64,000 bases of DNA, from the NCBI GenBank assembly GCA_963082975.1, contig OY720345.1:3857001-3921000 (forward strand). The letters run 5' to 3'. The number at the start of each line of letters is the position of its first letter. The stretch's first letter is position 1. This DNA comes from Labia minor. Lineage: Eukaryota > Arthropoda > Insecta > Dermaptera > Spongiphoridae. Positions 16,301-62,577 of this stretch are shown piece after piece. The notes beneath the pieces were generated by a model. That model did no database searches and was not told where the DNA came from. It was given only the letters and a program-made list of their open reading frames with translations. A program made the position numbers and the translations under genes.

Positions 16301-19300
16301 CATTTTATTTTTAGCTCAATATCAAATAAAATTTATTCATCATTTATTCTTTAATTATATTCCTTTTTTCATTTTTATTACAATTTAAATTAATCATTAT
16401 TACTGTTTTATTTACTAATATTTTAAAAAAATTTTGATCCATAGTTGAATAATTAAATATTTTTTTTTTTTTGTGGGAGAAGAGTCTGTTCAAATTTCTG
16501 CAAGATTGAAAAGAGCTTAATTTGGTTGTTTAATTGATATATATTATTTATTATAATTTTAGTAAAAAGATTTTATTTTTTTTTTCAATTTATAGGTTGA
16601 GTGTCCAATTTGCCTGCTTTATTGTTCTATAAATATGATTGATGATTTAATTTTAGTATAAAATAAAAATCTACTTGAGAAAAATTAAAACAAGTTCACC
16701 CGTACAATTGAAAAATATTGACTAGGTATCTATCCTCAGAATTTTGATGTGTTTAGTCGAAAAGATATCCAAATAATGAATTTCACGCAATCACTATCAA
16801 AAGAAAATCAGAGATAAAAAGATATCAGATTTCATAAAAAATCAAAAAATATGAAATTATTACTATCTCGCCATATGTTCGATGTCGAGATTTTGATGTT
16901 TTTATAAGTTTTGAAGGTTCCTGAATCATTTTCAAAATGTCTGTCTGTGTATGTGTATGTGTGTGTGTGTATGTTTTTCCTCTAAAGTGACCGTAAAAAT
17001 AAAGAGATATGTTTGATAGTTTTTTCCACATGATTAAAAATTGTATAAAACTATTATATATAGAATTTCAGCTTGATTGAATCGCTGAAAGTACCAGAAT
17101 TAATTTTTTAACACGGCTGCAAATCACGCGCCAGTACTTGACGTGGTGCCATCAACCAAGAGCCAAATATGCGCTGATTTAATAAATATTATTTATTAAT
17201 TTTAATTTATAATTTATAATTAATTAAATTTAATTTAAATATATAATATATTATGTTATTTAATCCAATTCAAATTGGGGGATAGTCGAGTGGAGACATT
17301 CCAGATTTTTTTTTATTTTAGTTTTTCCTTCATTATTCAAAGAATATCAAATACAAATCATTTGTAATTCACCTTGTAAAAAGTAATTGAAGTATTCATA
17401 GAGGAAGTTTATTAAACGAATAACTTTGATTAATTAATAATATATTTATAATTAAAAAGGAATTACTATTGGCTATATACAATATAATAGATGCTAATTA
17501 CCTGTTAGAACGTTCACTCAACAATTTTGACTAGTTTTTCTATTCACTGTTCAATGAAAACTAAAAATTACAATTCTTTTCTTTTATTTTATTTAAATAT
17601 TTTAATTTATTTTAATAATATTTTTCAAAGAATTGGCCGAGTCGCTTATCGCTTTTCAATGCAATAAATAATATAAACATTCGAATTCTTCTGGCTGTGC
17701 CCATTTGCCTCCTGCATTTAGAAAATAAAGAATATCATTTATTTTTTATATATTAATGATTCAATTGATTAAGAAAATAACTTAAGGAATGTTTTTCATT
17801 AGAAAAAGAGAATCTATAAATTTATACTCGTATATATAATTTATAAATGTATACTTATTTTCTTTTCCAATTACATTAGAAACAATTTTTTTTATTTTCT
17901 ATTATATATTATGATATTTTATAGACTAAGTGAGTTATTAATTATATTTATTAAATTTAATTATTTATAAGTGATAAAGTCATGAGGGCCTCGGACCCCC
18001 TCCATATATATATATCTTATTATTAAAATGGTATATATATTTGTATTTTTGAAATATTAAATTAATTTTTTAACACGGCTTCAAATCACGCGCCAGCACG
18101 TGACGTGGTGCCATCAACAAAGAACCAAATACGCGCTGGTTTAATAAATATTATTTATTAATTTATAATTTATAATTAATTAAATTTAATTTAAATATAA
18201 TATATTATGTTATTTAATCCAATTCAAATTTGCGAGATAGTCGAGTGGAGCCACTCCAGATTTTTCCTTTTTATATTATTTTAATTGTAATTTTTTAAAT
18301 AAAATGTTTTAAATTTATTTAACAATTATTAAGAAATGTTAAAATTTCATTGCATTAAATTTATATATTATTAATTATTTTTAAAAAAATCTCAGTGCAC
18401 ATTTTTTTTTATTCTTTGGCCAGCAGTGTATTTTAATATTTAAAATTCTTTATAGATTATATATTTCGTATTTTAATTTTTTGTTTTTTTTTTTTTGTTT
18501 TTTTATTTGGCAACCAATTGAAATATTATCATTTTCTTGTCAATGATCAAGAAATCATTGTCACGTTTCAAAGTGTTTTTAGGAATAATTTATTAGGGAA
18601 TAAGAAAAAATTTAAAAGATCAAAAGTTCCGCTTAGATTCTTTATTTCCTTTTTTTTCTTTTCTCTAATCAATCCAGATAACGAAATAAATTTTATAAAC
18701 TTTTGTAGGATTTTAATTAATCGAAATATTTTATTTTTAAAATGTTTAATATTTATGATGTGTCTGCACATACATTTTTTTTTTTTTGATTTTTTTTTCA
18801 CTATCTGATCTTTAACATTCGTGGATATAAAGTATTGGATTAGATACTGTTTAATATTCGACAGAATAGATGACGTTTTTTTTTCAAAAGAGTGTAAAAT
18901 ATGCGATTAAATCCCTCAATCTTTTTGTTCTGTATGAATATAAAATTATTTGAATATTTTTTCATTATATTAATATTCAATAAATCAATTAATTAGAAAA
19001 AAATTTAATATTAATTAATTCTATTTAAAAATAAATAATAAAAGTAAAAAAATAATTTATATAAAGGATGGTCCGTTTAAAGAGAATTTTTTTTTTTTTT
19101 GGATAATGTAATTTACCATATAACAATGTATATAATATGTAATTTTGTAGCCTAAATTCAATAGATAAATTATAAATTATATATTTATAAGGGAATTTTG
19201 TAAATTAAAAACACATATTGATATTTTTTATTGTAAATTTATTCAAAAAAAAAAAAAAAAGAAATACAAAAAATACGCGTTTCGATTCCTACTTTTGCAA

Positions 19301-22300
19301 TCGTTATCAAGCGACTGCAGAAGTAGCAATCGAAACGTTGTCTATTTTTTGTATTTCTTTTTTTTTTTTTTTTTGAATAAATTTAAAATGAAAATTATCA
19401 ATATGTGCTTTTATTTACAAAATCCCCTTATAAATAAAAACAGCCACCAATGCTTTAATAATTTTATAAATTATATATATTGTTTTTCACTATACTACCA
19501 ATACTAGTCATATTATAAGTAATAAATATTCAATGTTAATTAGATATTTGAAAAACCAAAATATTTGTAATCGCACATTTAAGACGACTCGTTTTTATAA
19601 AATGGGTCAAGGAGTGGCCCTATCTTTCATTTCATAGGAGAAATGAAAACTGAAAGTCTATCCTTGTTGTTACTTAAAAATTTTAAAATATTAGCTGCAT
19701 AAATTCAATCTCTATTAACATCTTGCTGAAACATTTCATTCATTAACACAAGAAAATTAGAATCAGGAGGTTAAAATCTTACAAACTTTCTTTCTGCCTA
19801 TTAGAAACATTTCAAAACTAAAATACAGTTATTGACTATTAAAAATAATATCTACGAGTACTGACTGAGATATTAAGAAAACTAATTTTACGTATATTAT
19901 CGTATATAATCGATAGAAACCGTCCTCTAGATATGTACAAATGTGATATTAATTTAATTATTTATTATTTCATGTAAGATATAATAAGTAATTCTCTTAA
20001 TTAAAATATAAAAGCATTAAACATTTTACGAGTAAAATCACAAAATTATATTTAATTACTATCTCGCCAGAGTATTGCCATGATGAAAATTTTCGATGTC
20101 GAGATTTTGATGTTTTTATACGTTTTGAAGGTCCCTGAGTCATTTTCACTAAGGCTGAGAAAAATGTCTGTGTGTATGTATGTGTGTATGTATGTAGGCA
20201 AGATTAAGCAAAAACGGTTTGAGTTAAAATTAGGAAATTTGGTATACGGGCATTATTCAAAATTCGTAGTTTTCTATCAACTTTTGAGAAATGTAGCTCA
20301 ATCGAAAGAGGGTCATTACTTACAACGTTTTGATTTTTTTTTCCTCTAAACTGAAAAATGTAAAAAAAAGATATGTTTGATAGTTTTTCACATTATTAAA
20401 AATTTATTATAAAATTGCTATATATAAAACTTCAACTCGATTGAATCGCTGAAAGTACCGGAATTAATTTTTTTAACACTTTAATACTGCAAATCACGCG
20501 CCAGCACGTGACGTGGTGCCATCAACAAAGATCCAAATACGCGCAGGTTTAATAAATATTATTTATTAATTTTAATTTATAATTTATAACTAATTAATTA
20601 AATTTAATTTAAATATCTAATAGAGTATGTGTTAATTAATCCAATTCAAATTGCGAGATAGTCGAGTGGAGACACTCTAGATTTTTTTTTATTTGTATAA
20701 TTTTAATAAGAAATCATTTGAATAGTTTTATTTGTAACATAATATAAAATTTATAAATGAAAAAGTTAATTTTTAATTTAATTAAATTTTAATGTTAATC
20801 ATAAGAAATTATACGATAAATTGAATTTCTTTTTAAACAAAAACAATTGTTAAAAAAACATTTAAATGGAAATATTTTAAGAAATTTAAATTTTTTTAAG
20901 ATTTGGATACTGTTTTGTTTAATTTTCTTATTTTCCCCTAATAATAATAACTAGCTGCTCCGAGCGCCTTCGGCGCTCTTCACACCTAGACGGGGGCTCC
21001 GCCCCCTGTACCCCCGAGTGATATATAGTATTTGGTTGAAAGTCTGTTTGTAAAAGGTTTTCATCCATTTTGTTTCAATCAGTATAAGTAGATAAGACAG
21101 GTATTTGTTTTCTTGTAAAATATATTTTAATTTAATCAGTAAATTAATTATATATTATTATTATTAATTGCGTATGGACCGTCTTGGATCACGTAAAGCT
21201 CCCATAAATTTTTTTAGAAGCGCATCGCATCCTCATGGTCATGATGCGATTGCTGATGACATTGACTTCTAATATTGAATCGATGATCTTCTTGTTCACA
21301 ATGAACGCAACGCCCAGAAGTGGTAAACCTCTTCCAATTCGCTTGGCCGTCTTGCTTTTGAATATGCGATAGTTCTTATAGTCCATTGTATTTTTCATCC
21401 GTGAATCTTGTCTCTTGAAGAGCAATTATCTGGATATTCTATCACGATTCATGGTTGCTTGTTTTTTGAGGTTATCCTGCCGGAGCAGGCTTTGTAGAAC
21501 CTGGGCTTGTCAGTTTCTGGAGCTGGGACACCCGATGTTAAATTAAATTAAATTTTTATTTTTATTAATTAAATAAATATAAATTAAATAAATATATTAT
21601 TATTGTATATGTTATATTTATCTAACTCTGTGTCTCTACAGTTTTCGAAAGTTTTTAGCCGCCCCATCCACATTTCTCTAAGCGTCCCTATCCTGAGCTA
21701 CAACCAAATCCTACCCTGTCCCATCTCTCCCATGTCCCTTCCTTCATTGTCCACCCACCTTGGTCCTTGGTCTTCACCGGATGTTTCCCAATCGGTTTCT
21801 CCCAATTTCTAGTTTATCCAATTCCAACCACGTCCCCTTCCCATCCCAGCCTTCTTGATTTTATAACCATAACTATATCTGGACATTATTTCTCGTTATG
21901 CCATCTCCGCCATCCCCCTGTGACCTCATCTTCTTTTGGCCTATAAATGCTGCGAACAATATTAATCTCACAAATACTCTAAATCTACTCTCGTCTCCCA
22001 GAGTCATCGATAGGGTGACCAAACGTCCCGTCTTTAGGTGCTCTGTCCCAACTGTCCTACTGTTTTTTCAATATTTAGGACATTTCGTAATTTTTTTTTC
22101 AAAATTTTTTCAATTTAGTTCTAAAAAATACTGTTTGTCCTGGTTTGGTGTTTTCGAAATATGGTCACCCTAGTCATCGATCAACATGAAAAATAATTGT
22201 TTTATATATTTTAATTTTGATCCTCTTTGATGAGATAAGCCCCTTTACTGCATAATAACAGGCGTTACTCAATTACAACGTCGATTTAAATTCTTCTCGA

Positions 22301-25300
22301 ATATTATTATCCTTCGTGATTAGAGATCTTAAGTATTTAAATATTTATACTTTTTCAAATTCTACATTTTGTATGTTAATTGTATGTAAGTCGTATCCGT
22401 ATCATAATTCTTGAATTTTTTTGTTTAATTACATTTCGGTTGATTTTTCCCCAATTTCTCTAATCATATGTCTCCTCTTCCAGTCCAATTCATTTACGTA
22501 TCAATGTTGCATAAGGAATTTAAATTTCTTAATTTGGCTAGAACACTCTATTTTTTAAAATTTTAAATAGAGGGAGAGAGAGAGGTTCTAATTATATATA
22601 TATATATATATCTGTTTCTATGACAGCAAAAAAGTAAACAAATTATATACATACAAACACTCTCCTTTATATATATTTCTGGAAAATGGAACACCCGCAG
22701 CTCAGCTCAGGAGTTACCTAAGATTCTAATTTCTTTTTTATTTTTCATCATTTGAGGTACCCTTCACCTCAGAAAAATTTGGTTACCTTACTCCTTGTAG
22801 TTTAGGCTCTGGAGTTTTTTGCGTACAGACGGACACTATCGTATTAAATATATAGATTAATCATTTATATTTTAATTATCATTCGATAAATTTGATAAAA
22901 CTCCTAAATACTTATTGAAAAATATTCTTAATTTTTATTTACGATTTATTAAATAACAATTTAAAAAATTGAAATTAATGTATGACAAATTAAAAACGAC
23001 ATTTTACTATATTAATAGAATAGAAATAATATAAATTTATAAATATATCATATATTAGAATTCTAATTTTATTAATTAATTCAAAAAAATCATAAATAAA
23101 TAAAAAAAAAATGGAAAAATTTTTGTTTATATTTTTATGCATTATTTAAAAATTTTAATTATATCTTTAATGGTGTGAGCGGGTTATCCCCTGGTTAAAT
23201 CACAAATTAAATATAAAATAATTTAGATTTATTTGAATCCAAATTTTAATTACATTTATAAACTCTAAAATATATGACAACTTAAAAGTAATTATTAAAA
23301 AAAAATAAATGTCTCAATTGAGATAATCACAAGTCTTCTTTCTTCTGGGGCCACACTCTCTTCGTTCCCTTCCTCTCACCTCAGTGTCCGAGCTCGGTCT
23401 GTCTAGCCAGCAGCAGGCAAACGCCAGCCACCCTCACCAGATCAAGGGTCATTTTTCCCACTATTACATCGTTCTCCCTTTAAGAAAGATTGTCCATTAA
23501 TTTCTTAGACAATCTTTGTCATTTATATCAGCGAGAGCGAAGGGACTCCGATTAGACACTAGCGAAACACCCCTCCGTCTTCGGTATCTCTCTTCTTTCT
23601 TCTGTCTTGAGGTTTATCTTAGTTTGAGAGTTCTTTTCCTCAGTTAGAATCACCACTATTATTATTACACTGTGTTAAACTATCTTCTGTTTCACAGTCA
23701 CTTCCTACAGCGAGAGGAATGGAATGAGCTGACATTGCTAATTCTGTTTCAGCACGATTGCCTAAAGTATTCCTAACTCTTAACCCATAGGGAGATCTAT
23801 TAACTTGACCGATATTTCTGCCTGGAATCCATTGAGAATCTTCAATGGAGGGACTCGAGCTGTCTTCTACCTCTTCTCTGATGGTGCTTTCAATTCCTTG
23901 CTCTCCTTCTACTCCTACAGTCTCATTCTCTGAGCATAAATCTTCCCCAACCACCCTTCTAGAACTTCTAAGGAAATAAGGAGATCTTTCACGGTGAGAT
24001 GACTCTCCTTCCGGAGTCCACTCTGATTCCGTCAAAATGGACCCATTATTTGAAGGCGAAGAGGTAACTTGAGTTTCATTATTATCTATATTATCATTTT
24101 CCTCTCTACTCAGAATCGGATCGTTTATAGCTAATTCTTCTATATTATCCGTTGAACGAGCTTGATTAAAGGAATTATCTATATTTGTGTTCATTTCCTT
24201 CGAGTATATCATGTTTGGTTCTTCATAAGGAAAGGTCTCTCTCGTACACTCCCAACATTCAGAATCTATAGGACTTTCTTCTAAATCATTTAATGTTTCT
24301 GTATAAATGCGGATTAAAATCGAATGATGTTTAATTTCTTCTAAAATAATTTCTCTAACTTTTTCCCAAGTTAATCGATCTGAACCGCAGCCTATGCGAG
24401 GTAATGCTATTTGTTTTATCCGTAAATTTTTAGCCTGGACTATCATAGATTTGATGCATTTTCTTAGTTGTTCAATTTTCACTTTCTCATCTATCGTTTC
24501 TTTTAAAATTAGATGAAAGATAATTCTCTCAGGGTGAAACTGAACAAGTGTATCACCTACTTTAGGAGTAGGTTTGATTTCTAGTGGATGACGAGGGTAT
24601 ACTCTTTTAATTTCCTTAGCAATACCACGTGACATTACTAAGTCGGCAGCAATTCCATAACCCAGCGCGAAATTCGTTGGTGCTTCTATAAGCTTACCTT
24701 CCACTTCTTCCAATCCGACGCTGTCTTTTATTTTTGAAGGTAATACGCTCGATTTTAATCGATTAACATGCACGTTCATAGTTTTATTTGGTCCGATAGC
24801 AACTTCATAGACTACCGGAGATTTTACCGAAACGATTACATACGGGCCCTTCCATGGTTTATGAAACTTTTTTGCTTGTTTTTCACCCGTTGCGGGTGTT
24901 AATAAAAATACGGAATCTCCTTCAAAAAATTGACGCATTTTTCTTTTTTTATTTTTATTTTTATGTGATAGTTTCAGCTCTTGGCGGGATTTATTTAGAG
25001 ATAAATAATAAGCTTTTTCCAAACGATTTATTAAATCTTCAATATATTTATCTCTAATGGAAGCGGAATAATGATACCGATATTCGTTCGCACAAGGTAA
25101 GTTTATTTCCCTTCCATATAATAAAAAATTTGGAGAGTAACCTGTGCTTCCATGTGGAGTGGAGCAATAGGCCATCATGGCATGAGGAAGCCACTGATCC
25201 CAATCTCTTCCATCAGGACGTACATAATGAGACATCGTGTCTATTAGTGTTCGATGGAATCTTTCTAATCGCCCATTAGATTCCGGGTGATAAGCTGTAG

Positions 25301-28300
25301 TGTTAATTTTTTTTATACCCAATAGCTTACAAAGGTGAGATAGAAGATTTGACATAAAGTTTTTACCTTTATCACTTAGCAACTTTTCAGGAGCCCCAAA
25401 TCTACAAATCACTCTTTCTACCAATGCTCTTGCTATACGCTCCGCTGTTTGGTTAGGGAGAGGAATTGCTTCAGCGTATCTGGTAAAATGATCAATACAG
25501 GTAAGAATGTATTTATTTCCTCTTTTTGTAGTTGGTAACGGTCCAACAATATCAACTGCTACCATTTGAAATGGTCTAGAGGTGTCTTCGTGTTCTTGAA
25601 TGGGTACTTTTAGACCAACCGGAGATTTTCTCAGATTACAACTTCGGCAAGTTTTCACATATTGCTCCACATCTTTTTTGAGTGTTTTCCAAAAGTATAA
25701 ACGTTCTATCAGTTTTTGTGTGGCTTCAATACCCCGGTGACCTGCCATAGGATGATCATGATGATGTTTAATAACTTGAAGAACGTATGATTTAGGTACT
25801 ATTAATTTAGGTTCATCATCATCTTCTGATTTTAAATATATAATTCCTCTTTCATCCTCTACAAAAGGTAAGTGTTGTTTTATCAATTGGCAGTCGATAT
25901 CCTTCAATTGAGCCTGTCTTAATTCCGTAGGATTATTATTTAATTCAATTATTTCAACCATTCCAACCGAACGACTCAATGCATCGGCATTTTTATGTAA
26001 TTTTCCTGCTTTATGCTCAACTTCATAATTAAATTCTGCTAGCTTTAAGGTCCAGCGTGTTAATCTGGATGAAGCATTTTTTAAGCTTAGCATCCATTTT
26101 AATGCTGCATGATCAGTTAATAATTTAAATTTTCTTCCATATAAATAACATCTGAATTGTTGGGTAGCCCATACTACCGCTAATAGCTCTTGCTCTGTAA
26201 CCGAATAGTTTTGCTCTGCCTTATTCAAATTTCTACTTGCAAAGGCCACAGGTCTTTCATACCCATTCCTCAGTTGAGAAAGTACGGCTCCTATCGCTCT
26301 ACCCGAAGCATCTGTCGCGAGAATAAAGGGATCTTTGAAATCTGGATAAATTAAAACATTATCCTTTATTAATTCAGACTTAAGTTTATTAAATGCAACT
26401 TCCTGATCATCATTCCATTTAAACGGTTGGTCTTTTTTGGTTAATTGGGTCAATGGTCGGGCTATATGAGCATAGCTAGGTATAAATCTCCTATACCAAC
26501 CAGAAAGGCCTAAAAACTGTCTTACCTCTCTGATATTCTTAGGTCGAGAATATAGTTTAATTGCTTCTGTATTTTTGGGATGCGGTTTTATACCATCGGC
26601 AGAAACAATATGACCCAGATATTCTACTTCGGAGACTGCAAAGTTGCATTTTGATATTTGTAATTTTAAATTTGCTTTTTGGAGCCTATTTAAAACATTT
26701 CGTAATCGAACAAGATGTTCATTCCATGAGTCTGAGAAGATGATAACATCGTCTAAGTATACGAAACATTCCTCTCCTTTTATATGAGCCAACACTCTAT
26801 CCATCAGCCTTTGAAAAGTCGCCGGTGCTCCTGCTAGGCCGAATGGCATGCGATTGTATTCAAAGTGCCCTTCAGGAGTAGAAAAAGCGGTCTTCTCCTT
26901 ATCCCGAGGGTCCACTAATATTTGATGATAACCACTGGCGAGATCTAAGGTAGTAAAAAGGCTTGCCTTACCAAGTGATTCTAACGTTTCGGTTATATTA
27001 GGTATTGGATAGCTTGCTACTTTCGTTATTTGATTCAATGATCGAAAATCTGTACAAAACCGATATTTTATTTCTCCATTTTTCTTTTTAGGTACTAATA
27101 TCACGGGCGCTGACCAAGGTGAGTCTGAGTCTTGTATAATATTCTTTTCCAGCAATTCCTTAATTTGATTTCTCATCTCATCTTTCAACGCATTGGGAAC
27201 CCGGTATGGTTTTTTACAAATAGGTGGGGAGAAATCAGTTATTATACGGTGCATGACACCCGAAGCACATCCAATATTTTTGTTACTTTCGTCGTAAATA
27301 ACCCCTGGATATTCGTTTAATAATGCCTTTAATTGATTTTTATGTTCTTTAGTTAAGTGTTTGATTTTATTTTCTAATATAGCCTTAAAGTCACTTGTTT
27401 CACATTCATTTTCCCATTTAATTTGATTCACCTCAAATACATCAGTTAATTCTCCAACCGCTATTTCAGTTTTATTATCTACTCTTAATTTCTTTCCCGT
27501 CATATTAATCATTTTAATAGGTGTCATTCCATTGACGATTCTCCCAATAGAATAAGCAATCCGTACACCTCCTCCTATTTGGGCAGGTTGAAGCAATAGA
27601 TTTCTTTTTTCTAAATTTTTTGATTTTGAAACTTTACCCCAAATAAATATTTCTGACCAAGGAGGAATTTCCACATTTTCAAGGCAATGCACTGAATATT
27701 CCTTTTTCGTGTCAGTTTCCAAACTAACCACTTGTTGGTTATCTTCTTTAATTTCGTTAAAACGCAATTCTTGAGAAGAAAAATCTAAAGTGGCTCCTAT
27801 TTTCTTTAATAGGTCTGCCCCGATCAGGCCTGCTCCGACATTTTTCAGAGGGGAAATAATAAATTGATGTTGCAATGTTTTTCCGCACAGTATTACTTTT
27901 ACCTTTTGAATACCTATTATATTAAGGAGGTCTCCAGTAATACCCCTAGCTACTCCCGACCAGGGATATATCGGAATGCCGGGTACCGGGTCTCTTAAAA
28001 TTGATACCTGTGCTCCTGTATCAACTAATAAACGACGATATACATCCCCCACTAAAGCACCCACGCGATTATCATCCCCCACTTTATTGGTAGTTACTGT
28101 TGTAATAATTATGCCCTGATTTTTGGATCGATTAACAGGTCTTTGCTCGATCCTTATTCGTTTCCCTTTTCTCTGAAGCTTTTTCGATTTTCTCCTTTGA
28201 TCGCTTGTATTCTTGGAGAAGTGCTAGATTCAAAAATTCTCGAACTCGATGTGCGAGGAGATTCCGTAGTGAGATTTGAACAATTTCTGGCCAAATGACC

Positions 28301-29344
28301 CTTTCCTCTGCATTTGAAACATACTATCTCCTTTGATGGTGAAGAAGCACAATGTCTAGCCATGTGACCTTTATTTCCACAATTGAAACAACTCTGGTTT
28401 TTTGTGTATGTAAAATTATTTGTATATAAATCATCCCCTTGATTTTTACAACCCGATTCCTTTCTCAATTTTTCCATTTCGAATTCGATTCTTTTAGCTC
28501 GTGATAGAGCCTCTTCTTCATCTTCTGGAGGTGATACTCGTAAAGTTTTACCTACTTCACCTTCAAGTCCCTCTAAGAAAAGTTCTAAAACTGTAAATCC
28601 AAATGATTCTCCACTTTCTAATACAGCTTTTATCCTATCATAAAAATCCCCAGCTTGTTCATAAGGTAATTGTTTTAAGCCCGTTAATTGTTTAATTCGA
28701 TCTAATTTATTAATTTTATTCCCGAAGCGATTTATAAGTTTAGCTTTTAGTTCAGCATAATTTAATTCACTAGATTGCCCCTGAACAAATAAAAGAGGTG
28801 TTCCTTCTAATTTTAATTTTAATACCACTAGTTTGTCAGCATCACTCCATCTCCCTAGCAGAGATAATTGCTCGAACCTAGTTATAAATTCGTCAAACGA
28901 TTGTTTACAATCCCAGGTTTTTATTTGATCTAAGAGTGTAAAGTTAGGTTCACGTTCAACTTTGACGGTAATTGCGGTGGGTCGTTTTGCAAGTTCTGCT
29001 TCTAAGATTGCAATTTTTTCTTCTAAATTAGCCATTTTTAAATAATATTAAACAAAATAAAATATAAAAATACCACTTATATATATAGAATATATATAAA
29101 TATTACACTCTAGGTATATAAATAATTATATTTTACATGAACATTGATTTTTATAAAAACACACAAATATTATATTTATTTAAAGATATAAATACACATT
29201 ACTATTATAAATAATATTATATAAATTTATAAATAAAACTTATTTTCTATTTGAAAAAAAAATTAAGTAGATTAACTGAATGAATACGCACTTTGAACAT
29301 ACACATTTTAGAAAAAAAAAAACTTTATATATTATAAAAATTCT

Positions 29345-29389
<45 letters not shown>

Positions 29390-30154
29390 ATGAAGGGTCC
29401 CTAATTTATTCTAATTGTAGAATAGTATAGGTAACTCACCTCACACCTGACACCAAATTGTGAGCGGGTTATCCCCTGGTTAAATCACAAATTAAATATA
29501 AAATAATTTAGATTTATTTGAATCCAAATTTTAATTACATTTATAAACTCTAAAATATATGACAACTTAAAAGTAATTATTAAAAAAAAATAAATGTCTC
29601 AATTGAGATAATCACAAGTCTTCTTTCTTCTGGGGCCACACTCTCTTCGTTCCCTTCCTCTCACCTCAGTGTCCGAGCTCGGTCTGTCTAGCCAGCAGCA
29701 GGCAAACGCCAGCCACCCTCACCAGATCAAGGGTCATTTTTCCCACTATTACAATGGGATCCAGTTAATGACTCGAGTTTTTTTTTTTGCAGTTACGTAG
29801 ATTCTCAGCCTGCCTGGGGCAAACAGCTCGAGGGGGAAGTACGCCCCGGAGTCACGGAAATGACGTTCATCGCCCGTAGTCCCCTGGGCAATGTCACCGC
29901 CACCTGCACCATGCGGATCAACGTAGAAGGCAAGTCCCATGGATTCTCCAGTCACAGCTGGCCCAGTAATCATGGATTTAAATTAAAAAAAAAAAAATAT
30001 TAGATTAGATTTCATCTTGATTTGACATGCAACAGATTGCCGATCAAATGCGGTTATCCAATTGCAGAGAACATTGGACAAAACAAACAAAGATCACTAA
30101 TGAATTACTAATCCAATATAACAACCGATCATTTTAAATATAAATGTACTATAC

Positions 30155-30195
<41 letters not shown>

Positions 30196-33100
30196 CACTA
30201 TTAAGGTTTATTTGCTAATAATTGAAATTTACATTGGATAAATTGAATATTTATTTATATAATACTAAAAATAATTTCTATAGTCTCGTAATTATGAAAT
30301 TCAAATTTCTATCGTTTCGTCCAAAAAGTATTTTTTTTTTTTACTATCTCGCTAGAGAACGTTTTGATTTTTTTTCCTCTAAACTGACCGTAAATATAAA
30401 GATATATGTATGATAATATTTCACATGATTAATAATTGTATAAAACTGTATAGAATTTCAACTTGATTGAATCGCTGAAAATACCGGAATTCATTTTTTA
30501 ACACTGCAAATCACGCGCCAACACGTGACGTGGTGCCATCAACAAAGAGCCAAACATGCGCTGATTTAATAAATATTATTTATTATTTATTTTTATTAAT
30601 TTATAATGAATTAAATTGAATTTAAATATAATATATTATGTTATTTAATCCAATTCAAATTGCGAGATAGTCGAGTGGAGACACTCCAGCTTTTTTAATT
30701 TTAATGATTATAGTAAATGTAGTAAAGTAAGTGATATTTGTTTTTTATCTAAATACCCATATCATCTCCGATGTATGGACATAGAATTTTTCTTTAAATA
30801 CAGAAAACATTGTGTAAAGTTCATTTTAATGATTCGTTTAATTCATATGACTTTCATATTTATGTATCCCCATAAAAGAAAATCATTGCTTTTCAAGTCC
30901 ATCTCAAAAGGATATTCTTGAAAAGAAGAAATTTAAAACGATTTTTTTATACTTTTTTCCCTATTTTATATCCTATATATAAAATTCCTAAAGTGAGTTG
31001 GTAAAAAAGGGGTTAGTTATCATTTAAATAAACAACGCTTTATAGAAAAAGTTCTCCCTGCTTGAGGTCGATATCCCCTTCTGGTTGATGACTCACCGTA
31101 AAAATAAATAACCCTTTATACGAATATAATTCAACTTTGAATTTGGTTCATCTTTTCAAATTAAATTTCTTTTACACGTAAACTACAACGAAACCTCCTC
31201 GTATTCCATTCATTCCTAGAGAAAAAGAAATGTAATGTAATTTCATAATAAAAAAACTTTATAAATTAAACTATAAAACAAAAAAATAAAAAATATTACT
31301 TAGTTATAAATTATAATAAATAAAATGAATATAAGATTATTTTTAACAGTTGGGGTGAAAAGTCTGTAGGTTAACAAACACAAAGTTCACATTACTAGGA
31401 TTAAATCCATGTGATTATTTGTTAGTATTATCCTTCAAAAGATATGGGTATAAATTTTTCAACTGTTGAGTATCGAGTAGTTGGTTTGTGAGATACACAA
31501 TAACATTTTTCAGGTTTTGTTATTTTCAAAAAGATATAAAGATAGAAAATATTGTCGTGGGATTTTTATTGAAAAAAAATACGGCTGAAGCCAAGGCTTG
31601 ACTTTATAAAATTATTCGGACTCTGTACTAGTAAAATCAACCATTGAATCATTTTCACTAAAGTTAAGAAAAATGTTTGTGTGTGTGTGTATGAAGACAA
31701 GATTACGCAAAAACGGTTTCAGCTAGAATCATGAAATTTGGATCATGGGCATTAATCAAAATTCGTAGTTTTCTATCAACTTTGGAGAAATATAGCTCAA
31801 CCAGAAGAGGGTCATTACCTACAACGTTTTGATTTTTTTTTTCCTCTAAAGTGACTGTAAAAATAAAGATATAGGTTTGATAATTTTTCATCTGATTAAA
31901 ATTTATATAAAACTGCTATTTATAGAAGAATTTCAGCTTGATTGAATCCCTAAAAGTCCCGGAATTAATTTATTTACTGGAAATCACGCGCCAGCACGTG
32001 ATGTGGTGCCATCAACAAAGAGCCAAACATGCGCTGATTTAATAAATATTATTTATTAATTTTAATTTAATTTTTAATTTAATATAATATATATGTGTCA
32101 ATTAATCCAATTCAAATTTGCGAGATAGACACTCCAGATTTTATATAATTCAGATGACTGTTTTTTTTTTTTTTTTATTAATAGAAAAAAAAATTTAAAT
32201 TAGAATCATAGATGTAACTTATGTTTAATCAAATTCAAAATTCCATTAGGTCCGAAATTGAAAAGTTACGTAGTTTATAATGAAAATTGATTTTCGTAGC
32301 ATTTTCTATCCTATACATTTATTCATTGATAAATGAATGCATAATATAACTTTTCAAAGTTTTGTTTTTATATTTAGAAGAAATGTTTATAATAAAAAAG
32401 CTACAATATTTTTCCCCTTTGAAAAATCATTTTTTTGAAAACTAAATTAATCTTGATTATTTGTTCTAATGCAATAGGAGATGAACGATTTATATATCCT
32501 GCCTTCTATTCTTAATTTAATTTTATCTCAACAACAACACAAATGGCTCTCCTATGTGGTCCATCTATCAATATAGATTTCTCTTTGATTTAATTTTTCT
32601 CTCTCTTTTTGTCTTTTTGTTACCATTGCACTTTTCTCTTTTTTTTATATTAGCTTTTAGTAACCAACATTTGAAGAAGATACTTTATCCTATTATATGT
32701 ACTATATTTATGATAGAAATCGACATTTTATAATGTAACAAAAAAAAAAAAAAAAGATAAAATGGGATTTTGAAAAATCCCTAAGGAATTGAAAGATATG
32801 ATATCTTCTCTGGTTGTAGATGTGGACGTGCCCCGAGTTCTCTCCTGTCCGCGGTCCTTCGAAGTGCAGCTGTTGCCCGGAGAGGCGGGCCGCAGCGTCA
32901 CTTGGCCTGAGCCCGTTTTTCACGACAACCACCACCTTCAGCATATCTACCGCTCTAAGGTATATAATAGAATATAAAAGTGCTCCTTTCTTAGAAAACA
33001 TCATCCCCTCTCATTCATCAATATTTGATACCAATAGGTCCCTTTTTTCTCAAGATAAAAAAAATATATATAAATATATACTAGTATATACCATGTCATA

Positions 33101-52833: not shown

Positions 52834-54764
52834 ATGTCTGATGTAAAATCCTTTTTTCATGAGTGGTGTAGTAAAAAGAAAGTCAATCCACAGTTTGAAG
52901 TTAGACCAACAGGTATCTATTTTATATTTTTAATTTTATTGGAAGAAATAAAAAATAATTCTATTTTTTCGTTTCTAAAGGGTCGAAACAAAGGCAAAGA
53001 TTTTTATGTGAAGTACGTGTTGAGGGATTCCAATATGTAGGAGCTGGAAATTCTACCAATAAAAAGGATGCCCAAAGCAATGCCGCTAGAGATTTTTTAC
53101 AATTTCTTGTGAGGCAGGGATTAGTTAATCCAAATGATATTCCTGGCGAAAATGAGAAACGTGGTGACGATCCAGATAAAAATCGAGATCAACCAGACGC
53201 ATCCTTTTCAACGAATTCCGCTCCAATGCGACCTGTTTTTCAACCTGGAATGGGCCCCAATGAGATTGGGGAAGCTTACAGGCCGTACACCGAGAAAAAT
53301 GATCGTCCATACACATATATGGATAGAATTGCGGATCAGAAAAAAGTGGAAGAAGTAAGTTGTTGAAATCCTACAGTATTAATAGAAGTAACTTGTAAAT
53401 TGGTTTTTAATTTTACAGGCGGAAGATTTAGATGTAAATGCAAGTATTCATGGCAATTGGACGATTGAAAATGCAAAATCGAAGTTGCATCAATTTATGC
53501 AAATGCACCGTATCCAAATTGATTATAAGTATACCCCAGTAGGACCAGATCACACAAGGTGCATAAATAAATTAAACGAAATTATATTGATATTTGTTGA
53601 TACTTTACATTTTTTATAGTCAAATTGAGCAGATGATTTGCACAATATATTTATTTTTATCAATCACTTTCTATACCTAGGCACAAGTGATCTATAGAAA
53701 TAATAATTAATTGATGCTGGCCTCTTGATGTATGCATTCTATACACCAATTTGCTTAGCAATTTGTTAGTATTTCAGGGCTTGGAATTGATATTGATTTT
53801 AAAATAATTTAATATCTTTATCAAGCCTAAAGAGGATAAATAAATTCATGAAACGAGCACTATTATTTATTTATAAGCAACAAAGAAATAAAAGATAGAA
53901 TCTTGTTGGAAAAAATGATTAAATGATATTGTTTCGAAGACAAAGAGCTCATCAACCGACGAACATAAACATTCTAGAATCCATGTTGATGAAAAATCTT
54001 CGAAACTAGTCTAACTTAAAAACATTCTTTTTTAGAATGAAATCTTTCATCTTTTATTTCTTTGATGCTTATAAGCATGAACGTATCATTTCTTTGATTT
54101 TAAAGAACTATCTCTTCTTTTTCCTTTGAAAAACAAAAAAAAATTAAAGATTGAGTAAGCATAAAATTTGTTCTTTTTTTTTTGCTTATTCCATCTTGAC
54201 AGATTTTATAAATAATAGCAAGTCATCTGCTCAAATTTGAATCAAGGTGAGTTTATTATTTAAAATATGTATTTTTTAAATTTTAAAATTATTAATACGA
54301 TTTAAAACAATAACTAATATTTTATTTTATTATTATTGTAAAGGAGTTTCGTGGCGGAAATGAGTCTTTTTATTAAACAATTGAACCGAAGTAAGTTTAA
54401 TCCTAAAACAATAAAAAAAAAATTGATAAATAAACATTAATTTATATTTTTCATTTGATGCAGCGATTACTGGAAGAGAAACTGGTTCCAATAAACAAAC
54501 TGCTTCTAAAAGTTGTGCCCTTTCACTTGTACGACAACTCTTTCATTTAGGGGTAATTGAAGCATTTTCAGGAACTTTGAAAAAGAATAAAGAAGGCGAA
54601 CAAATGAAACCTTACAAAGTATCTATTTCTCCTGAATTGGAATCACAAGTTTTTGATGTTTTGAATACTGTTAATGTAATTCCGGTTAAAATTGTGAGTA
54701 TTGATTTTTTTAATTGAAAAAAATAATTGATCAATTGTATTTTATAAGGGTTCTTATATACACT

Positions 54765-54801
<37 letters not shown>

Positions 54802-57800
54802 GGTGACCAAACGTCCCGTTTTTAGGTGCTCTGTCCCGGCGTCCCGAAAAATGTCTTCGGGACAGCCTATTGCCCCGTTTTTTAAATATTTAGGACATTT
54901 CGTACTTTTTTCACTTTGATTCTAGAAAAAAAAGGTAAAATATCCCGGTTTGGTGTTTTTAAAATATGGCCACCCTACCACCCTATATATAGTTTATTAT
55001 AATCAATTTCCTTTATAAATTCAATCTCAAATGGTCAAACTGGGAGTTAATTAATATAAAATAACAGTACAATATAATAATAGTTTAATAATAATTTTTC
55101 AAATCTCTTATTGTAATTTTTAACCGAAATATTATATTAGTCGTTGAGATTTTGTTAACCCCTTATAAAGTAAAGGGGTTTTCCAAAAATTGCAACCCAA
55201 CATATAAACTATGTCGAGATGCGGGTTTTAATTTTAATGGGTGTCAGCAACAATGCCCTCACTATACGTTCATTGGACATTATGCTCCCCAAGACAAGGA
55301 CTAGCTATTTTATTATCCACCCTTCTCTATAATCAAACACTACGAATATTTTAGTCACATAAGATGGCCCTTGTAAATCATTATTTAAAAATTTATTATT
55401 AGCTATAGATGCAATAATTTTGTATTAAACAAAATCTGACATTAATTATGAAATATTAAGTATTATAGAATATTAATTTATATTTTAAATCTTTAATTAA
55501 TTAAGATTAATGAATTTCATTAGACATAACAATAGCGCTAAATTCAAAATTTTCAAAATTTTAAAAAATAAATCCATTTATTAAAAAAAATTTCGATTTT
55601 CCTTATTTATAAAAAACTATAATTAAGTAAAATTTAGTAACTTAGTAAAATTAATTTTAAAATATTTTATTTCTCAATATTTTAAATATGAACTTTAATT
55701 TTATTAAGTAATTCATTTTTATAACTTTATTATTTAAAAATAATAATTTAATTATTCATTATTTCTAGCCTGAAAATCCGGAAGGGCCTGTGTCGCTTTT
55801 AACAGATCAAGTTTTGGATGATTTCTTAATCTCTAAACCACAAATGGCTGGAGTCGTTTCTTGGTCACCACCACAAGTCAATTGGAATACTTGGACAGGA
55901 TGTAATATTGATGAAGGTCCTTTAGCAACTAAAAATTTAGATGAGATTAGTGAAACCCTTCATCTTGAACAAAGGGAAAAAATGATGAATAATCAAGATC
56001 TTTTGAATTCTATTAATGAAAGATCGAAACTTCCTGTAAATCACATGAAATCCAAAATTATGACAGAAATCAATGAAAATCCAGTGATAATAATTAGAGG
56101 AAATACTGGTTGTGGAAAAACTACTCAAGTAATTTTTTTTTTTAATTTAATAATGATTATAGCTATTTTTTTAAATGATTTTTTTTAGGTTTGTCAATAT
56201 ATCCTAGATGACTATATTCAAACAGGCCAGGGAGCTTATTGTAATATAGTAGTTACTCAACCTCGAAGAATATCAGCTGTATCTGTTGCTGATCGTGTCG
56301 CTGTTGAACGTTGTGAAAATCTTGGAGAATCAGTTGGATATAGCGTTCGATTTGAATCATGTCTCCCCCGACCTTATGGTAGTATACTTTTCTGTACTGT
56401 CGGTGTCCTATTAAGACGTCTTGAGAATGGTTTGCGAGGAGTTTCTCATGTCATTGTCGATGAAATTCATGAACGAGATGTTAATTCTGACTTCATTATG
56501 GTTGTATTAAGAGATATGATTCATACTTATCCGGATATGCGATTAATTCTTATGTCGGCGACAATTGATACTACTCTATTTAGCAAATATTTCAATGATT
56601 GTGCCGTTATTGAAATTGAAGGACGAGCTTTTCCAGTTCAAGGTATTTCTAATATTTACTAATTTATATAATGCAATTTATAGTATCTAAAACATTTAAC
56701 AACTTCTTTCCTTTCAAGAATTGAACATAAAACATAAAATATTTTTAATTCCAGAATATTATCTTGAAGATTGTGTACAACTTCTTGATTTTGTTCCTCC
56801 TACGGATACTAGAAAAAAATCTAAAGATAAAGATGATGAAACTGGTGGTGAAGAAGATGAAAATTTGAATAATCAAGTATCAGAAGACTATACAGTAAAA
56901 ACAAGAAATGTTGTTGCTCAATTAAGTGAAAAAGAATTAAGCTTTGAACTTATTGAAGGATTATTAAAATATATTAAATCGTTAAATATTCCCGGAGCCG
57001 TTCTCATTTTCCTACCAGGATGGAATCTCATCTTTGCATTGATGAAACATTTGCAAAATAATCCATCCTTTTGTAAGAATCATTTTAAAATTTTACGATT
57101 CTATATATTTCAATAATGATATTGATATATTCTCATTAAATTATTTATTTTAGCAAGCCATTCTTACTGTATTATCCCATTACATTCTCAACTTCCAAGA
57201 GAAGATCAAAGAAGAGTTTTTGATCCAGTTCCACCTGGCGTTTTTAAAGTATCCTCATTTTTGTGAATTTTTTTCTAATTTGCTATTTGTTATGATAATC
57301 TTAAAAATTTTTCAGATTATATTATCAACAAATATTGCTGAAACTTCATTAACTATAAATGATGTTGTGTATGTGATTGATAGTTGCAAAGCAAAAATGA
57401 AACTTTTTACTTCACATAATAATATGACCAATTATGCGACTGTTTGGGCTTCTAAAACTAATTTGGAACAACGAAAAGGAAGAGCAGGACGTGTTCGACC
57501 TGGGTTTTGTTTTCATCTTCTCTCTAAGGTTTGTCTTTTACATCAGCAAAAGAATCCTCCAATATTATTTTTAAATCTTTAAATAATTTTTTAGGCTCGA
57601 TATGCCAAACTTGATCAACATATGACACCTGAAATGTTCCGCACACCCTTACATGAATTAGCGTTAAGTATTAAATTACTCCGGTTAGGTTCTATTGGTC
57701 AATTTTTGAGTAAAGCAATAGAGCCACCGCCGATAGACGCAGTAATAGAGGCTGAAGTCCTCCTTAAAGGTTCGTTCAACAATTTTTTTTGTCTTTTTTT

Positions 57801-60548
57801 TAACCTAATATTTTTCTTTTTTATTATTCTAGAAATGAAATGTCTGGACTTGAATGATGAATTAACACCTCTTGGGCGAATTTTGGCCAAACTGCCTATT
57901 GAACCCCGTCTTGGCAAAATGATGGTGCTTGGTTGTATTTTCTCCTGTGGAGATGCTCTTTCAACAATTGGTGCAAATAGTTCTACGTTTCCAGAAGTTT
58001 TTACAACAGGACAAGATCATCGAAGACTTACATTTCAACAAAGAGCTTTTGCTGGGAATCGATTTTCTGATCACGTAGCGATGTTGAATGCTTTTCAATG
58101 TTGGGAAGATGCACGCATGAACGGAGAAGAAAATGAACTTTATTTCTGTGACCAAAAAATGTTAAATTTGCCAACTTTAAGAGTCACTTGGGATGCCAAA
58201 GTAATTATTCAATTTCTATATACCTTTTAAATAGAATATATTTCTGGAATAAATATATTAATTGTGTTATATATTTTAGAATCAATTAAAAGTATTATTA
58301 CAATCTTGTGGTTTTCCTGAAGAAACAATGATTCCTCAAATATTTAATTATTCTGGTCCTGATGCTAAACTTGATATGGTAATAGCACTTCTAGGAATGG
58401 GATTATATCCAAATGTATGTTTCCATAAAGAAAAACGAAAAGTTATTACCACAGAATCAAAACCAGCACTTATTCATAAAACTTCTGTAAATTGTAGTAA
58501 TATGGAACAAAATTTTCCATTCCCTTTTTTTGTTTTTGGGGAAAAAGTAAGATTTATTGGATTTCTATTAATAATTTGTTAAAAAAGTAATTTTTTTAAA
58601 TTATAATTTATTTTTATTTAGATACGCACTAGAGCAGTTTCTTGTAAACAAATGACAATGGTCACCCCCATTCATCTTTTATTATTTGGTTCTAGAAAAG
58701 TTGAATTTGTAGAAAATATGATACGGTTAGACAATTGGTAAGAATAACATTCTTTGTTTTTTTCATTTTTTTCTTAAATATTTATTACAATAATAGTTAA
58801 ATATATTAATTTATTATTTATAGGATAAATCTTGATATGAAACCAGAAGTTGCTGCGGGTCTTGTTGCTTTAAGACCTATACTGGAATCTTTAGTAGTTC
58901 GAGCCGCTAAAGATCCAGAAACGATTACAGAATTATCTGAAATTGATGAAAAAGTAATGAATGTCATTAAACATCTTTGCAAATTCAATGCCGGTCTCCA
59001 TGGACTAGATAATAATTTAAATATGACAAGGTAAATAAATATTTGGAAACACTAATACTTAATTAATTATTTTATAGTTATTTTATAATATAACTAGCTG
59101 CTCCTGCTCCGCCCCCTGTACCCCCCGAGTGTCCTTATTCTGAACTATAACCATCTAACTCCTACCCTGTCCCATCTCTCTCACGTTCCTTCCTACATTG
59201 TCCACCCTGTTCACAATTGGTCTTCCAAACGGACGTTTTCCAATTGAATTCCCCACCAATATATTTTTCCTCTCCCATTCTAGCCATGTGCCCTGCCGAT
59301 CCCAGCCTTCTCTATTTTATTTTATGACCTATATCTAGAGATGCATAGAGGTCATGCAATTCCTTGTTATGCAGTCTCCGCCATTCCCCGGTGTCCTCAT
59401 CTTTCTTTGGCCCATAAATGCTGGGAAGAATCCTATTCTCAAATACTCTGAATCTACTCTCATCTCCCAGGGTTATAGACCATGCCTCCCACCCATATAA
59501 TACAATTAATAATTTAATAATTTTGATCCCCTTTGATAATAATTTCCCGATTGCAACCTCGATTTAAATTCTTTGCAAATATTATTCTCTCTGATACTAA
59601 TTATTTTGTCTTATCAAATTAATTAATTTCAAACCCCATCACTTTTCCTGCCTCGATTAATTTTTTATGCCTCTTTAAATGTTATTAATTTATTTTAAAA
59701 AAAATAAAGTAAACAAAATAAAAATAAAATATAAAGAAATTAGCATAACACTAAACTACTATAAAAATATATATTAAAATCTTACGTGAAAATCCAATTA
59801 TGAGATCAAATTTTCTTAATTAAAATGATTTACTCACATAATCTTAATTATCTTACATAAAATTAATTTAATAAAATATTAAAATAATAAAATTTAATAA
59901 ATTTGTAAAAAAAATATATAATACTTAAAAAAAATGTGCCTTTGCGAGTTTCGAACTGAGGGTGCAAAGTCATAAGATCATGTTTGCAATTCTCCTATAA
60001 GGGTATATATAGAAGTCAAATTATCTTCACCAGCGCCTCTATGATCTAGCATAGTAACTCTAAACTATTTTTATTTAAATTCCACCCCCTGGACACACCT
60101 TAGCAATTAGCGGTTTAATAAAAGAAGTCTGACATGCCCTGAGACCTACTGAATATGCATGAAAAATTTCATAAGAATCGGTCCAGCCGTTTCGGAGGAG
60201 TATCATTTCAAAGTTTTGTGACACGAGAATTTTATATATAAGAAGATATAAATATAATTATATTTTTTCAGCTTTCGAGGTAAAAGACCACCACGTACTG
60301 AGTTTTTCCGTGGAAATGGACCTCCAAATAAAATGTTTAGAGGTTAATAAATATTATATTGATAGGTGAAATCTATTAATTAATTTAAAAAATAATTTAT
60401 TATATTTTCAGGTGGAGGTAGAGGCTTTGGTGGTGGATTTTCAGGAAGAGGATTTCGAGGAGGAGAAAGAGGATTTAGAGGATATGGAGGTGGTAGAGGT
60501 TATGGTGGCGGAGGATTTGGAAGAGGAGGATATAATCAAGGATATTAA
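52834..60548 (+). CDS. mle: maleless (DHX9-type dsRNA helicase, dosage-compensation/RNA helicase A)
   Basis: 17 exons: 52834-52912, 52981-53354, 53419-53558, 54344-54390, 54464-54693, 55769-56128, 56189-56642, 56755-57072, 57154-57248, 57316-57528, 57595-57769, 57833-58200, 58280-58546, 58622-58737, 58824-59030, 60272-60342, 60412-60548. They total 3651 nt, giving 1216 residues in one frame. Two N-terminal dsRNA-binding domains (~1-75, ~160-235), helicase core with GNTGCGKT (401-408), DEIH (501-504), SAT (533-535) and QRKGRAGR (751-758), then the HA2/OB region, and a Gly/Arg-rich C-terminus (RGG-type, ~1170-1216). Very close to Drosophila MLE. A 3'-to-5' RNA/DNA helicase acting in the nucleus on structured RNAs; the roX/MSL role is known only in flies. 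A 5' UTR intron may end at 52810. Codons are AT-rich. Confidence 0.97.
53620..54240 (+). other. Long nested hairpin filling intron 3 of mle
   Basis: Three nested complementary pairs lie in order: 53620-53641 with 54218-54240 (core GAGCAGATGA); 53871-53896 with 54049-54074 (26 bases, one mismatch); 53931-53956 with 53985-54006 (GTTTCGAAGA / TCTTCGAAAC and CTCATCAAC / GTTGATGA). Between the outer and middle stems the left side has its own hairpins (for example GCTTGG...ATATT with AATATC...CAAGC at 53779-53826). The whole intron RNA could fold into a branched dsRNA. Confidence 0.75.
54799..54985. mobile_element. hAT MITE in mle intron 5 (family of 22011)
   Basis: Starts TAGGGTGACCAAACGTCCCG and ends GGCCACCCTA plus a duplicated CCACCCTA. 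Flanked by TATATAGT on both sides (54791-54798, 54986-54993). Same internal GGTGCTCTGTCCC and TTTAGGACATTTCGTA blocks as the copy at 22011. Confidence 0.85.
59093..60245. mobile_element. Composite repeat in mle intron 15 with antisense LINE fragment
   Basis: The left edge is a shortened family B start (ACTAGCTGCTCCTGCTCCGC ... CCCCCGAGTG). From 59117 to about 59660 the minus strand holds LINE coding remnants (SITLG-like, [40 protein letters not shown]) broken by stops. The right part (60150-60242) contains AGAATCGGTCCAGCCGTTTC, GGAGGAGTAT and ACACGAGAATTTTATATATA, a tail seen on many insect non-LTR repeats. It enlarges this intron to 1.24 kb; the other mle introns are mostly under 120 bp. Confidence 0.65.
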
Positions 60549-61116: not shown

Positions 61117-62577
61117 CTAAGCTTTGCCTTCTAAAGCTTTCCCCCCTGCTCCTGGAACTTTAGGGGTAGTTTGAGTTTGTTCTTTTTCTAATTGACGACC
61201 TAAATATTCCCAATTATGTACCATGAGCTTTTGTACAGCCAAAAGTGCTTCGTAACGAACATTTGGATCGTCATGGCCCAAGAGCTGCATCACAAGCTGC
61301 TTGCCCCCCAATTGCTCAATAACATTTTTACCTCGAGGATAATGGCGAACATATTCGCCAATATCAAAACTGGCAACACTTAACACCAGTGGCTCTTTGC
61401 TGGTTTCTAATAAATGAACAAGAATACGTAATAATTCATAATTTTTTTCATTTAATCTTGGGGCATTTTCTCGCCAAAATTTTGCTGATTTATGTACTGG
61501 ACTCCATTCCAGACGTCCAGATTTAACTTCAGTAGCATACTCATCAAAAGAACTCAAATCCTGAACAGAAGCCTGTAATTTTTCATTCAAGAATTCAACA
61601 TCAGAAAATATATCTTCATCATCAAATTTACGTTGTTCTAAAATGCTTAATTGTTTTAAAACCTTGCATTGTACCATTGCAATACAATGTTCTTTGGAAA
61701 CTTGATTATCCTCTGGCTTTTCGATAAGATTTCTAAAAACGGCTAAGATAATGCGAGTAACCTTTTCTTTGACGGAATCGCTCAAAATATCAGCAAGTAT
61801 TGGGATTACATTAAATTTATTCATTTTTTCAGCAAGAAGAGGATTGAATGTCAAAACCCAGAGACAAAATATCAATTGATATTGGACTTGGAAATTGACT
61901 CGTCCTTGTAAAACTGCAAGAAGTGTTGAAATTCCATCCACAGAAACAAATGCAAAACGATATTCATCAATGCGTAGCATCATTTGAAGACATCTTGCCA
62001 CCGATTGCATATATTCATTACTATTCTCTTGCAGTTGATCTTTAAGCCAAGTTAGATAGAAATGAAGGTCAGATTGATCCATTAATTCTTGACTCCAACA
62101 GGCAATTTTAGCAATAATTCTTGAAGTCATATTCATTATAAATCCATCAGGTCTATTTAATAGATTAAGAAAAGGCCCCCATACACTTTCTTTTTTTTTA
62201 TTTGAATGCTCACGAAAGATTTCAACTCGACTTCTGTCTTCCTGTAACATATCATCAATCATAATCAGAATATATTGAATGGTTTGATCTTTAGAAACAT
62301 GGCCAAGAAGATTCAGAAATGTTTTTGCACATTGAGCTCGATTTTCTTTAAGAAGAACATCACGAGAATTGGCATCGGTACTATTGTCAAAAAGAACAAT
62401 AAAATTATAATCTTCTTGCGAAATCATTTGGGATTGAAGATAGGATTGCCAATTAACGCGTTGTGTTCTAATTTCAGTAGCTTGTTGTTGAAGCACACTA
62501 GTAGCTGCTAACATATCTATTTTTTCATCTTGTAAAGCAGGAATGATTGTTTTAATTGAAGGATCGGACCCTGCCAT
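61117..62577 (-). CDS. VhaSFD: V-type proton ATPase subunit H (VhaSFD)
   Basis: 486 residues in one uninterrupted coding exon, ATG at 62575-62577. The length and sequence are those of the V-ATPase subunit H (SFD) family: [18 protein letters not shown] near the N-terminus, [13 protein letters not shown] (helical repeats), [20 protein letters not shown] segment, [19 protein letters not shown], and [20 protein letters not shown] then [20 protein letters not shown] near the C-terminus. Subunit H is an armadillo/HEAT superhelix that couples and regulates V1 and V0, needed for ATP-driven proton pumping at endomembranes. A 56-bp 5' UTR intron (62595-62650, donor GTAAGT, acceptor TTTTTTTTTTAG) precedes the ATG, so this is not a processed copy. 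Head-to-head with Clk, tail-to-tail with mle. Confidence 0.96.

Follow-up and report, generated by a model that had tools for sequence, protein, structure and literature searches.

The stretch of DNA analysed here (the window) comprises 64,000 nucleotides of the genome of the dermapteran Labia minor (contig OY720345.1, positions 3,857,001 to 3,921,000). It contains a long terminal repeat (LTR) retrotransposon of the Ty3/gypsy type (Metaviridae) whose Pol polyprotein carries, behind the integrase, a macro domain resembling TARG1/OARD1. The element is encoded on the minus strand of the window, and its assignment to Ty3/gypsy follows from its LTRs, its target-site duplication and the domain order protease-reverse transcriptase (RT)-RNase H-integrase. 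In coding direction, its features are:

29754..29757, no strand: target-site duplication ATGG, right flank (read from the sequence)
29459..29753, minus strand: 5′ LTR, 295 bp, with 0 mismatches in 295 against the 3′ LTR
29440..29455, minus strand: primer-binding-site-like stretch TGGTGTCAGGTGTGAG, adjoining the 5′ LTR (read from the sequence)
28154..29035, minus strand: gag, 293 amino acids (aa), two CCHC zinc knuckles (Pfam zf-CCHC, 39.2 bits, two stretches)
28160..28166, minus strand: slippery heptamer G GGA AAC in the gag frame (read from the sequence)
23640..28223, minus strand: pol open frame, −1 relative to gag, encoding protease, RT, RNase H, integrase, macro domain and tail (Pfam, motifs)
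24753..24848, minus strand: integrase C-terminal (GPY/F-like) segment, Pol 1079–1110 (Pfam Integrase_p58_C, 34.8 bits)
24300..24707, minus strand: TARG1/OARD1-like macro domain, Pol 1126–1261 (Pfam, structure matches, predicted fold)
24693..24695, minus strand: Lys1130, at the place of TARG1 Asp20 (alignment)
24501..24503, minus strand: Lys1194, aligned with catalytic Lys84 of TARG1 (alignment)
24378..24380, minus strand: Asp1235, aligned with catalytic Asp125 of TARG1 (alignment)
23643..24296, minus strand: C-terminal Pol tail, Pol 1263–1480, 218 aa, without a Pfam match and with little sign of constraint among copies
23472..23481, minus strand: polypurine-tract-like stretch AAAGGGAGAA, ahead of the 3′ LTR (read from the sequence)
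23174..23468, minus strand: 3′ LTR, 295 bp (repeat family D2)
23170..23173, no strand: target-site duplication ATGG, left flank (read from the sequence)

With identical LTRs and ATGG on both sides, the element is intact and its insertion looks recent. The primer-binding-site-like stretch TGGTGTCAGGTGTGAG is presumably tRNA-Leu-like. Within Pol we located the LVDTGA and YLDD motifs and the integrase blocks, and Pfam profiles match in the order RVP, RVT_1, RT_RNaseH, Integrase_H2C2, rve, integrase C-terminal segment and Macro. The best solved-structure match of Pol 1–1112 is the Gag-Pol of Saccharomyces Ty3 (E 1.1e-118, over residues 291–1103), and the aligned part stops ahead of the macro domain. 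The Pol tail holds two similar SPY.LR blocks. Sites of −1 frameshifting usually consist of a heptamer and a downstream stem. Here, a 7-bp stem (28125–28153, read from the fold) starts 6 nt past G GGA AAC, and the 103-nt fold around the site is no better than those of shuffled sequences (z −0.55); a −1 frameshift from gag into pol at this heptamer is predicted from the sequence.

The macro domain of Pol

TARG1/OARD1 (C6orf130), a member of the ALC1-like macrodomain class, is a terminal ADP-ribose protein glycohydrolase. The initial annotation, made from the letters of the window, proposed that Pol runs without a break from the integrase into a domain of this kind, and profile and structure comparisons bear this out. 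Pfam Macro matches at 32.1 bits in the whole Pol and at 38.6 bits on the isolated domain (cut-off 22). A search of solved structures returned human TARG1/OARD1 over 136 residues (E 2.6e-14), with DarG next (1.7e-8), and TARG1 is also the closest fold to the predicted model of the domain. The likeness to TARG1 covers the predicted fold over the whole domain, the Lys84/Asp125 dyad and the PRIGCG.D.L.W block, in which the PRIGCG loop is the same as in OARD1. However, TARG1 is a free protein and the domain described here is part of Pol.

The alignment places Lys1194 and Asp1235 at TARG1 Lys84 and Asp125, as the initial annotation had claimed. In the portions available of PMC9411070 and PMC5087735, TARG1 is described with the Lys84/Asp125 dyad, DarG with the Lys alone and SCO6735 with neither. 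For comparison we collected 122 TARG1-type macro loci, 80 from IMG/VR (kept of 119) and 42 from GTDB contigs, of which 119 yielded an open row. The dyad is present in 120/120 listed OARD1-type matches, 76/79 IMG/VR rows and 39/40 GTDB rows, the last count leaning because the GTDB loci were partly found with a pattern containing the dyad Asp. Since it is kept across all three sets, the dyad marks the TARG1 type, not animal origin.

The macrodomain of DarG, the antitoxin of DarTG, is the second-best match in fold and sequence behind TARG1 and the best NCBIfam match, below cut-off. It differs in having the Lys alone of the dyad (in the available part of PMC9411070), and the present domain is attached to an integrase. 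Identity with DarG is ruled out by the presence of the dyad Asp and by an NCBIfam score far below the DarG cut-off (40.1 against 250 bits). Among predicted viral structures, models of Kadipiro virus VP8 and of Frankliniella-associated flavi-like and negev-like viruses rank 1, 4 and 7; these arthropod RNA viruses differ in lacking reverse transcription, and their macro domains were compared by predicted fold alone.

The pocket of the window-family domain departs from TARG1 at several places. TARG1 Asp20 is, we assume, an adenine contact, as such an Asp usually holds adenine in macro domains. At this position the 120 listed matches contain Asp in 106, Asn in nine, Ser in four and a gap in one; the window family has Lys1130 instead, and one of 21 full-length copies has Glu. 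Because of Lys1130 we do not file the domain as an OARD1 orthologue, that is, as the host gene in a new place. The TARG1 Gly41 position is Ser, as in 3/27 OARD1-type rows, and further unusual residues surround the pocket.

Copies, constraint and a second family

We searched the genome (604,477,936 bases, 71 contigs) with Pol and scored 32 of 2,422 candidates, so that all copy counts are lower bounds. At least 34 scored matches were found. The window family accounts for at least 30 rows, of which 25 reach the macro domain and the other five are partial and end ahead of it. At least 21 copies are full-length, with 98–100% identity and spread over six contigs; 20 have no stop and one has a TAA. 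The macro domain is 98.6–100% identical in 21/21 full-length copies, and Lys1194 and Asp1235 are both retained in every one. Two partial copies (G000:C9:51812594-51815836 and C9:51833993-51837235), 21 kb from each other, have equal scores and the same stops and probably go back to a subsequent host-DNA duplication.

Changes among the 21 copies, counted as distinct differences from the window copy, indicate that the macro domain is constrained as protein. Without selection, 23–29% synonymous changes are expected. The macro domain has 12 synonymous versus six nonsynonymous changes (p 0.0001 to 0.001), the integrase end (Pol 960–1112) 11 versus nine (p 0.001 to 0.012) and the Pol tail 14 versus 27 (p 0.05 to 0.23); the tail count leaves out one of the 21 copies, which, compared in register, differs at 355 bases, a pattern expected from a small indel. 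Minor variants found in at least two copies have synonymous:nonsynonymous ratios of 6:0 in the macro domain, 3:3 in the integrase end and 3:5 in the tail, and single-copy variants 6:6, 8:6 and 11:22, respectively. As the copies are related, these counts are not fully independent. The initial annotation inferred that the domain is functional; its conservation and synonymous excess speak for a function. That annotation did not mention Lys1130 at the Asp20 position.

The joining of integrase and macro domain, for which the initial annotation had this one element, recurs in a second, env-bearing family of the same genome. It has gag, pol and a Baculo_F-type envelope-like open reading frame (ORF) after Pol, with the same macro domain in the same order, and was seen with open frames at two loci, L131 (G000:C2:92210500-92219500) and L132 (G000:C1:41811500-41820500). 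The macro domains of the two families are 39% identical, and each keeps the Lys/Asp dyad. The second family has Asp at the TARG1 Asp20 position and a stronger TARG1 match than the window family, and the predicted model of its macro domain is likewise closest to TARG1 in fold. Its envelope ORF after pol, the mark of an errantivirus, likens it to these env-bearing insect Ty3/gypsy elements; errantiviruses are not known to have a macro domain in Pol. By contrast, the stretch from pol to the 3′ LTR is only 171 bp long in the window family and holds no ORF of 80 aa, and the absence of an envelope ORF after pol rules it out as an errantivirus.

Origin and genomic setting

The macro domain likely entered the common ancestor of both families, once, as judged from the sequences. 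We built a tree from 20/79 IMG/VR rows, 18/40 GTDB rows, 17/120 listed proteins with human OARD1, and the two element rows. The element rows join at 100/99. Their branches are long (1.77 and 1.88) and adjoin one long bacterial row, a kind of join that the program warns may be false. The join also rests on residues that the two element rows share and the OARD1 rows lack (e.g. YPRHP). Both rows lie outside the 18 sampled OARD1 rows, among which there is no insect OARD1. With five long rows dropped, a clade of the elements and OARD1 is not rejected by the approximately unbiased (AU) test (p 0.068). The initial annotation's inference that the domain was captured is supported, as something that took place in the history of both families. 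The domain may originate from bacteria or a virus. Its codon use equals that of Pol, so nothing indicates a recent arrival.

No insect OARD1 was seen among the 120 best of 3,358 matches, where the query held human OARD1 and vertebrates top the list. Protein searches with Pol and macro-region words (374 candidates, 0 at E 0.01) and with the isolated macro domain (26 candidates, none kept) missed OARD1 too and are silent on distant relatives. Pol gave four pattern matches in IMG/VR and 15 in GTDB contigs, and an alignment of both element macro domains gave 40 in IMG/VR, with 0 confirmed in each case. A tblastn match to Pol 1–1112 at E 0.01 occurred in 0/122 of the TARG1-type loci from IMG/VR and GTDB.

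Like the initial annotation, which knew of no Ty3/gypsy lineage with this domain, we met no TARG1-type domain fused to a Ty3/gypsy integrase in the searched literature on macro domains, ADP-ribosylation and retroelements. Teleost epsilon-like endogenous retroviruses carry macro-domain ORFs (Basta et al. 2009, cited in the portion available of PMC4977317). As described there, they resemble the present elements in being retroelements with a macro domain, but the domain occurs in additional ORFs, not fused to the integrase end of a Ty3/gypsy Pol.

Around the element, copies of repeat families D1, D3, D4 and D5 (18079–32111) lie ∼10–11.5 kb apart across it; these are older repeats, separate from the element. 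An exon-like open stretch (29788–30003, plus strand, by eye) lies within a few dozen bases of where the element inserted, and Pfam gave no match on 29692–30000. If this stretch is an exon, the element is intronic and antisense to the gene. Farther away lie exon-like frames of an MLE/DHX9-type RNA helicase (52959–58582, plus strand), with a double-stranded RNA-binding motif at 52959–53363, a helicase part at 56189–56659 and the rest by eye. The segment 56189–56659 matches chains of dosage compensation regulator, which we take to be Drosophila MLE, better than RNA helicase A (7.9e-77 versus 8.8e-68), which points to an arthropod as the likely host. A U4atac minor spliceosomal RNA gene (55179–55304, minus strand, 101.4 bits) sits just before helicase exons, and V-ATPase subunit H occupies one open frame of 486 aa (61117–62577, minus strand, Pfam 334 bits).

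Proposed function and alternatives

On balance, we lean towards a role of the TARG1-type domain in Pol as an ADP-ribosyl hydrolase that would remove host marks of the poly(ADP-ribose) polymerase (PARP) type from Gag, integrase or complementary DNA (cDNA). Pol would be made as Gag-Pol through the predicted −1 frameshift, and the macro domain would thereby enter the particle along with integrase and cDNA. Following the route proposed for TARG1, Asp1235 would deprotonate Lys1194, which would attack the anomeric carbon of the distal ribose, and ADP-ribose would be taken off the element's Gag, integrase or cDNA. The element would benefit by escaping host ADP-ribosylation. The retained dyad and the constraint on the domain favour chemistry over mere binding.

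Several points weigh against a hydrolase. The main doubt concerns the adenine position, where the window family has a Lys: Lys1130 in place of Asp20, together with Ser at the Gly41 position, may weaken or change ADP-ribose binding. Identity to OARD1 is ∼30%, the best NCBIfam match is DarG, and the tree does not support grouping the domain with animal OARD1 (AU p 0.068 for uniting them in one clade). The synonymous excess is protein constraint and does not point to which function is kept. Enzyme activity is itself predicted from sequence and fold, and host ADP-ribosylation of retroelement parts is presumed.

The strongest rival, which we nonetheless consider unlikely, is that the macro domain is a targeting module that binds ADP-ribosylated chromatin and steers integration, with hydrolysis secondary or absent. 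Chromoviruses carry a chromodomain right after the GPY/F segment, and here the macro domain stands directly C-terminal to the integrase, in the chromodomain's place. The loss of the usual adenine Asp while the predicted fold is intact suggests a changed ligand, and a reader of this kind would also be under protein constraint. A pure reader could, however, dispense with the Lys/Asp dyad, yet both families retain it at 39% identity. The same pocket residues (Lys1130, Ser for Gly41 and their unusual neighbours) would also fit the idea that the captured domain is now devoid of ADP-ribose chemistry and merely provides Pol with a folded spacer or a solubility module. This we hold to be rather improbable, given the dyad in all 21 full-length copies, the OARD1-like PRIGCG loop, the shared variants that are all synonymous in the macro domain and the even better TARG1 match of the second family.

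Hydrolysis of small molecules (e.g. O-acyl-ADP-ribose) in place of protein- or DNA-linked ADP-ribose offers no obvious gain to a mobile element, and we give it little credence. The fusion has a negligible chance of being an error of assembly or annotation, or an insertion that happened only once. The genome-wide copies led us to reject this: every one of the 21 full-length copies, which lie on six contigs and in 20 cases lack stops, has the domain, and a second family shows the same domain order. A join confined to a single copy, which the initial annotation had named as a danger, is excluded by the same counts.

RNA viruses that have macro domains employ them to counter host ADP-ribosylation. 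The retroelement version of this idea has been hardly testable so far, the sole precedent met in our searches being the extra ORFs of fish retroviruses. In the present case, two families of one genome have a catalytic-looking TARG1-type domain fixed to their integrase; the domain is constrained, and the window copy has identical LTRs. We put forward, tentatively and at somewhat less than even confidence, that a lineage of arthropod Ty3/gypsy elements, one member of it env-bearing and errantivirus-like, has fixed a TARG1-type hydrolase in its integrase polyprotein, and that this may be the first known case of an LTR element bringing an ADP-ribose eraser of its own into the particle, where it would clean integrase and cDNA. 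If this is true, arthropods would be using ADP-ribosylation of retroelement protein or DNA as a defence against viruses and transposons. Through a small purified domain, the question of whether ADP-ribosylation restricts animal transposons and retroviruses becomes directly biochemical. Alongside the chromodomain, the macro domain may be a second type of module linked to integrases.
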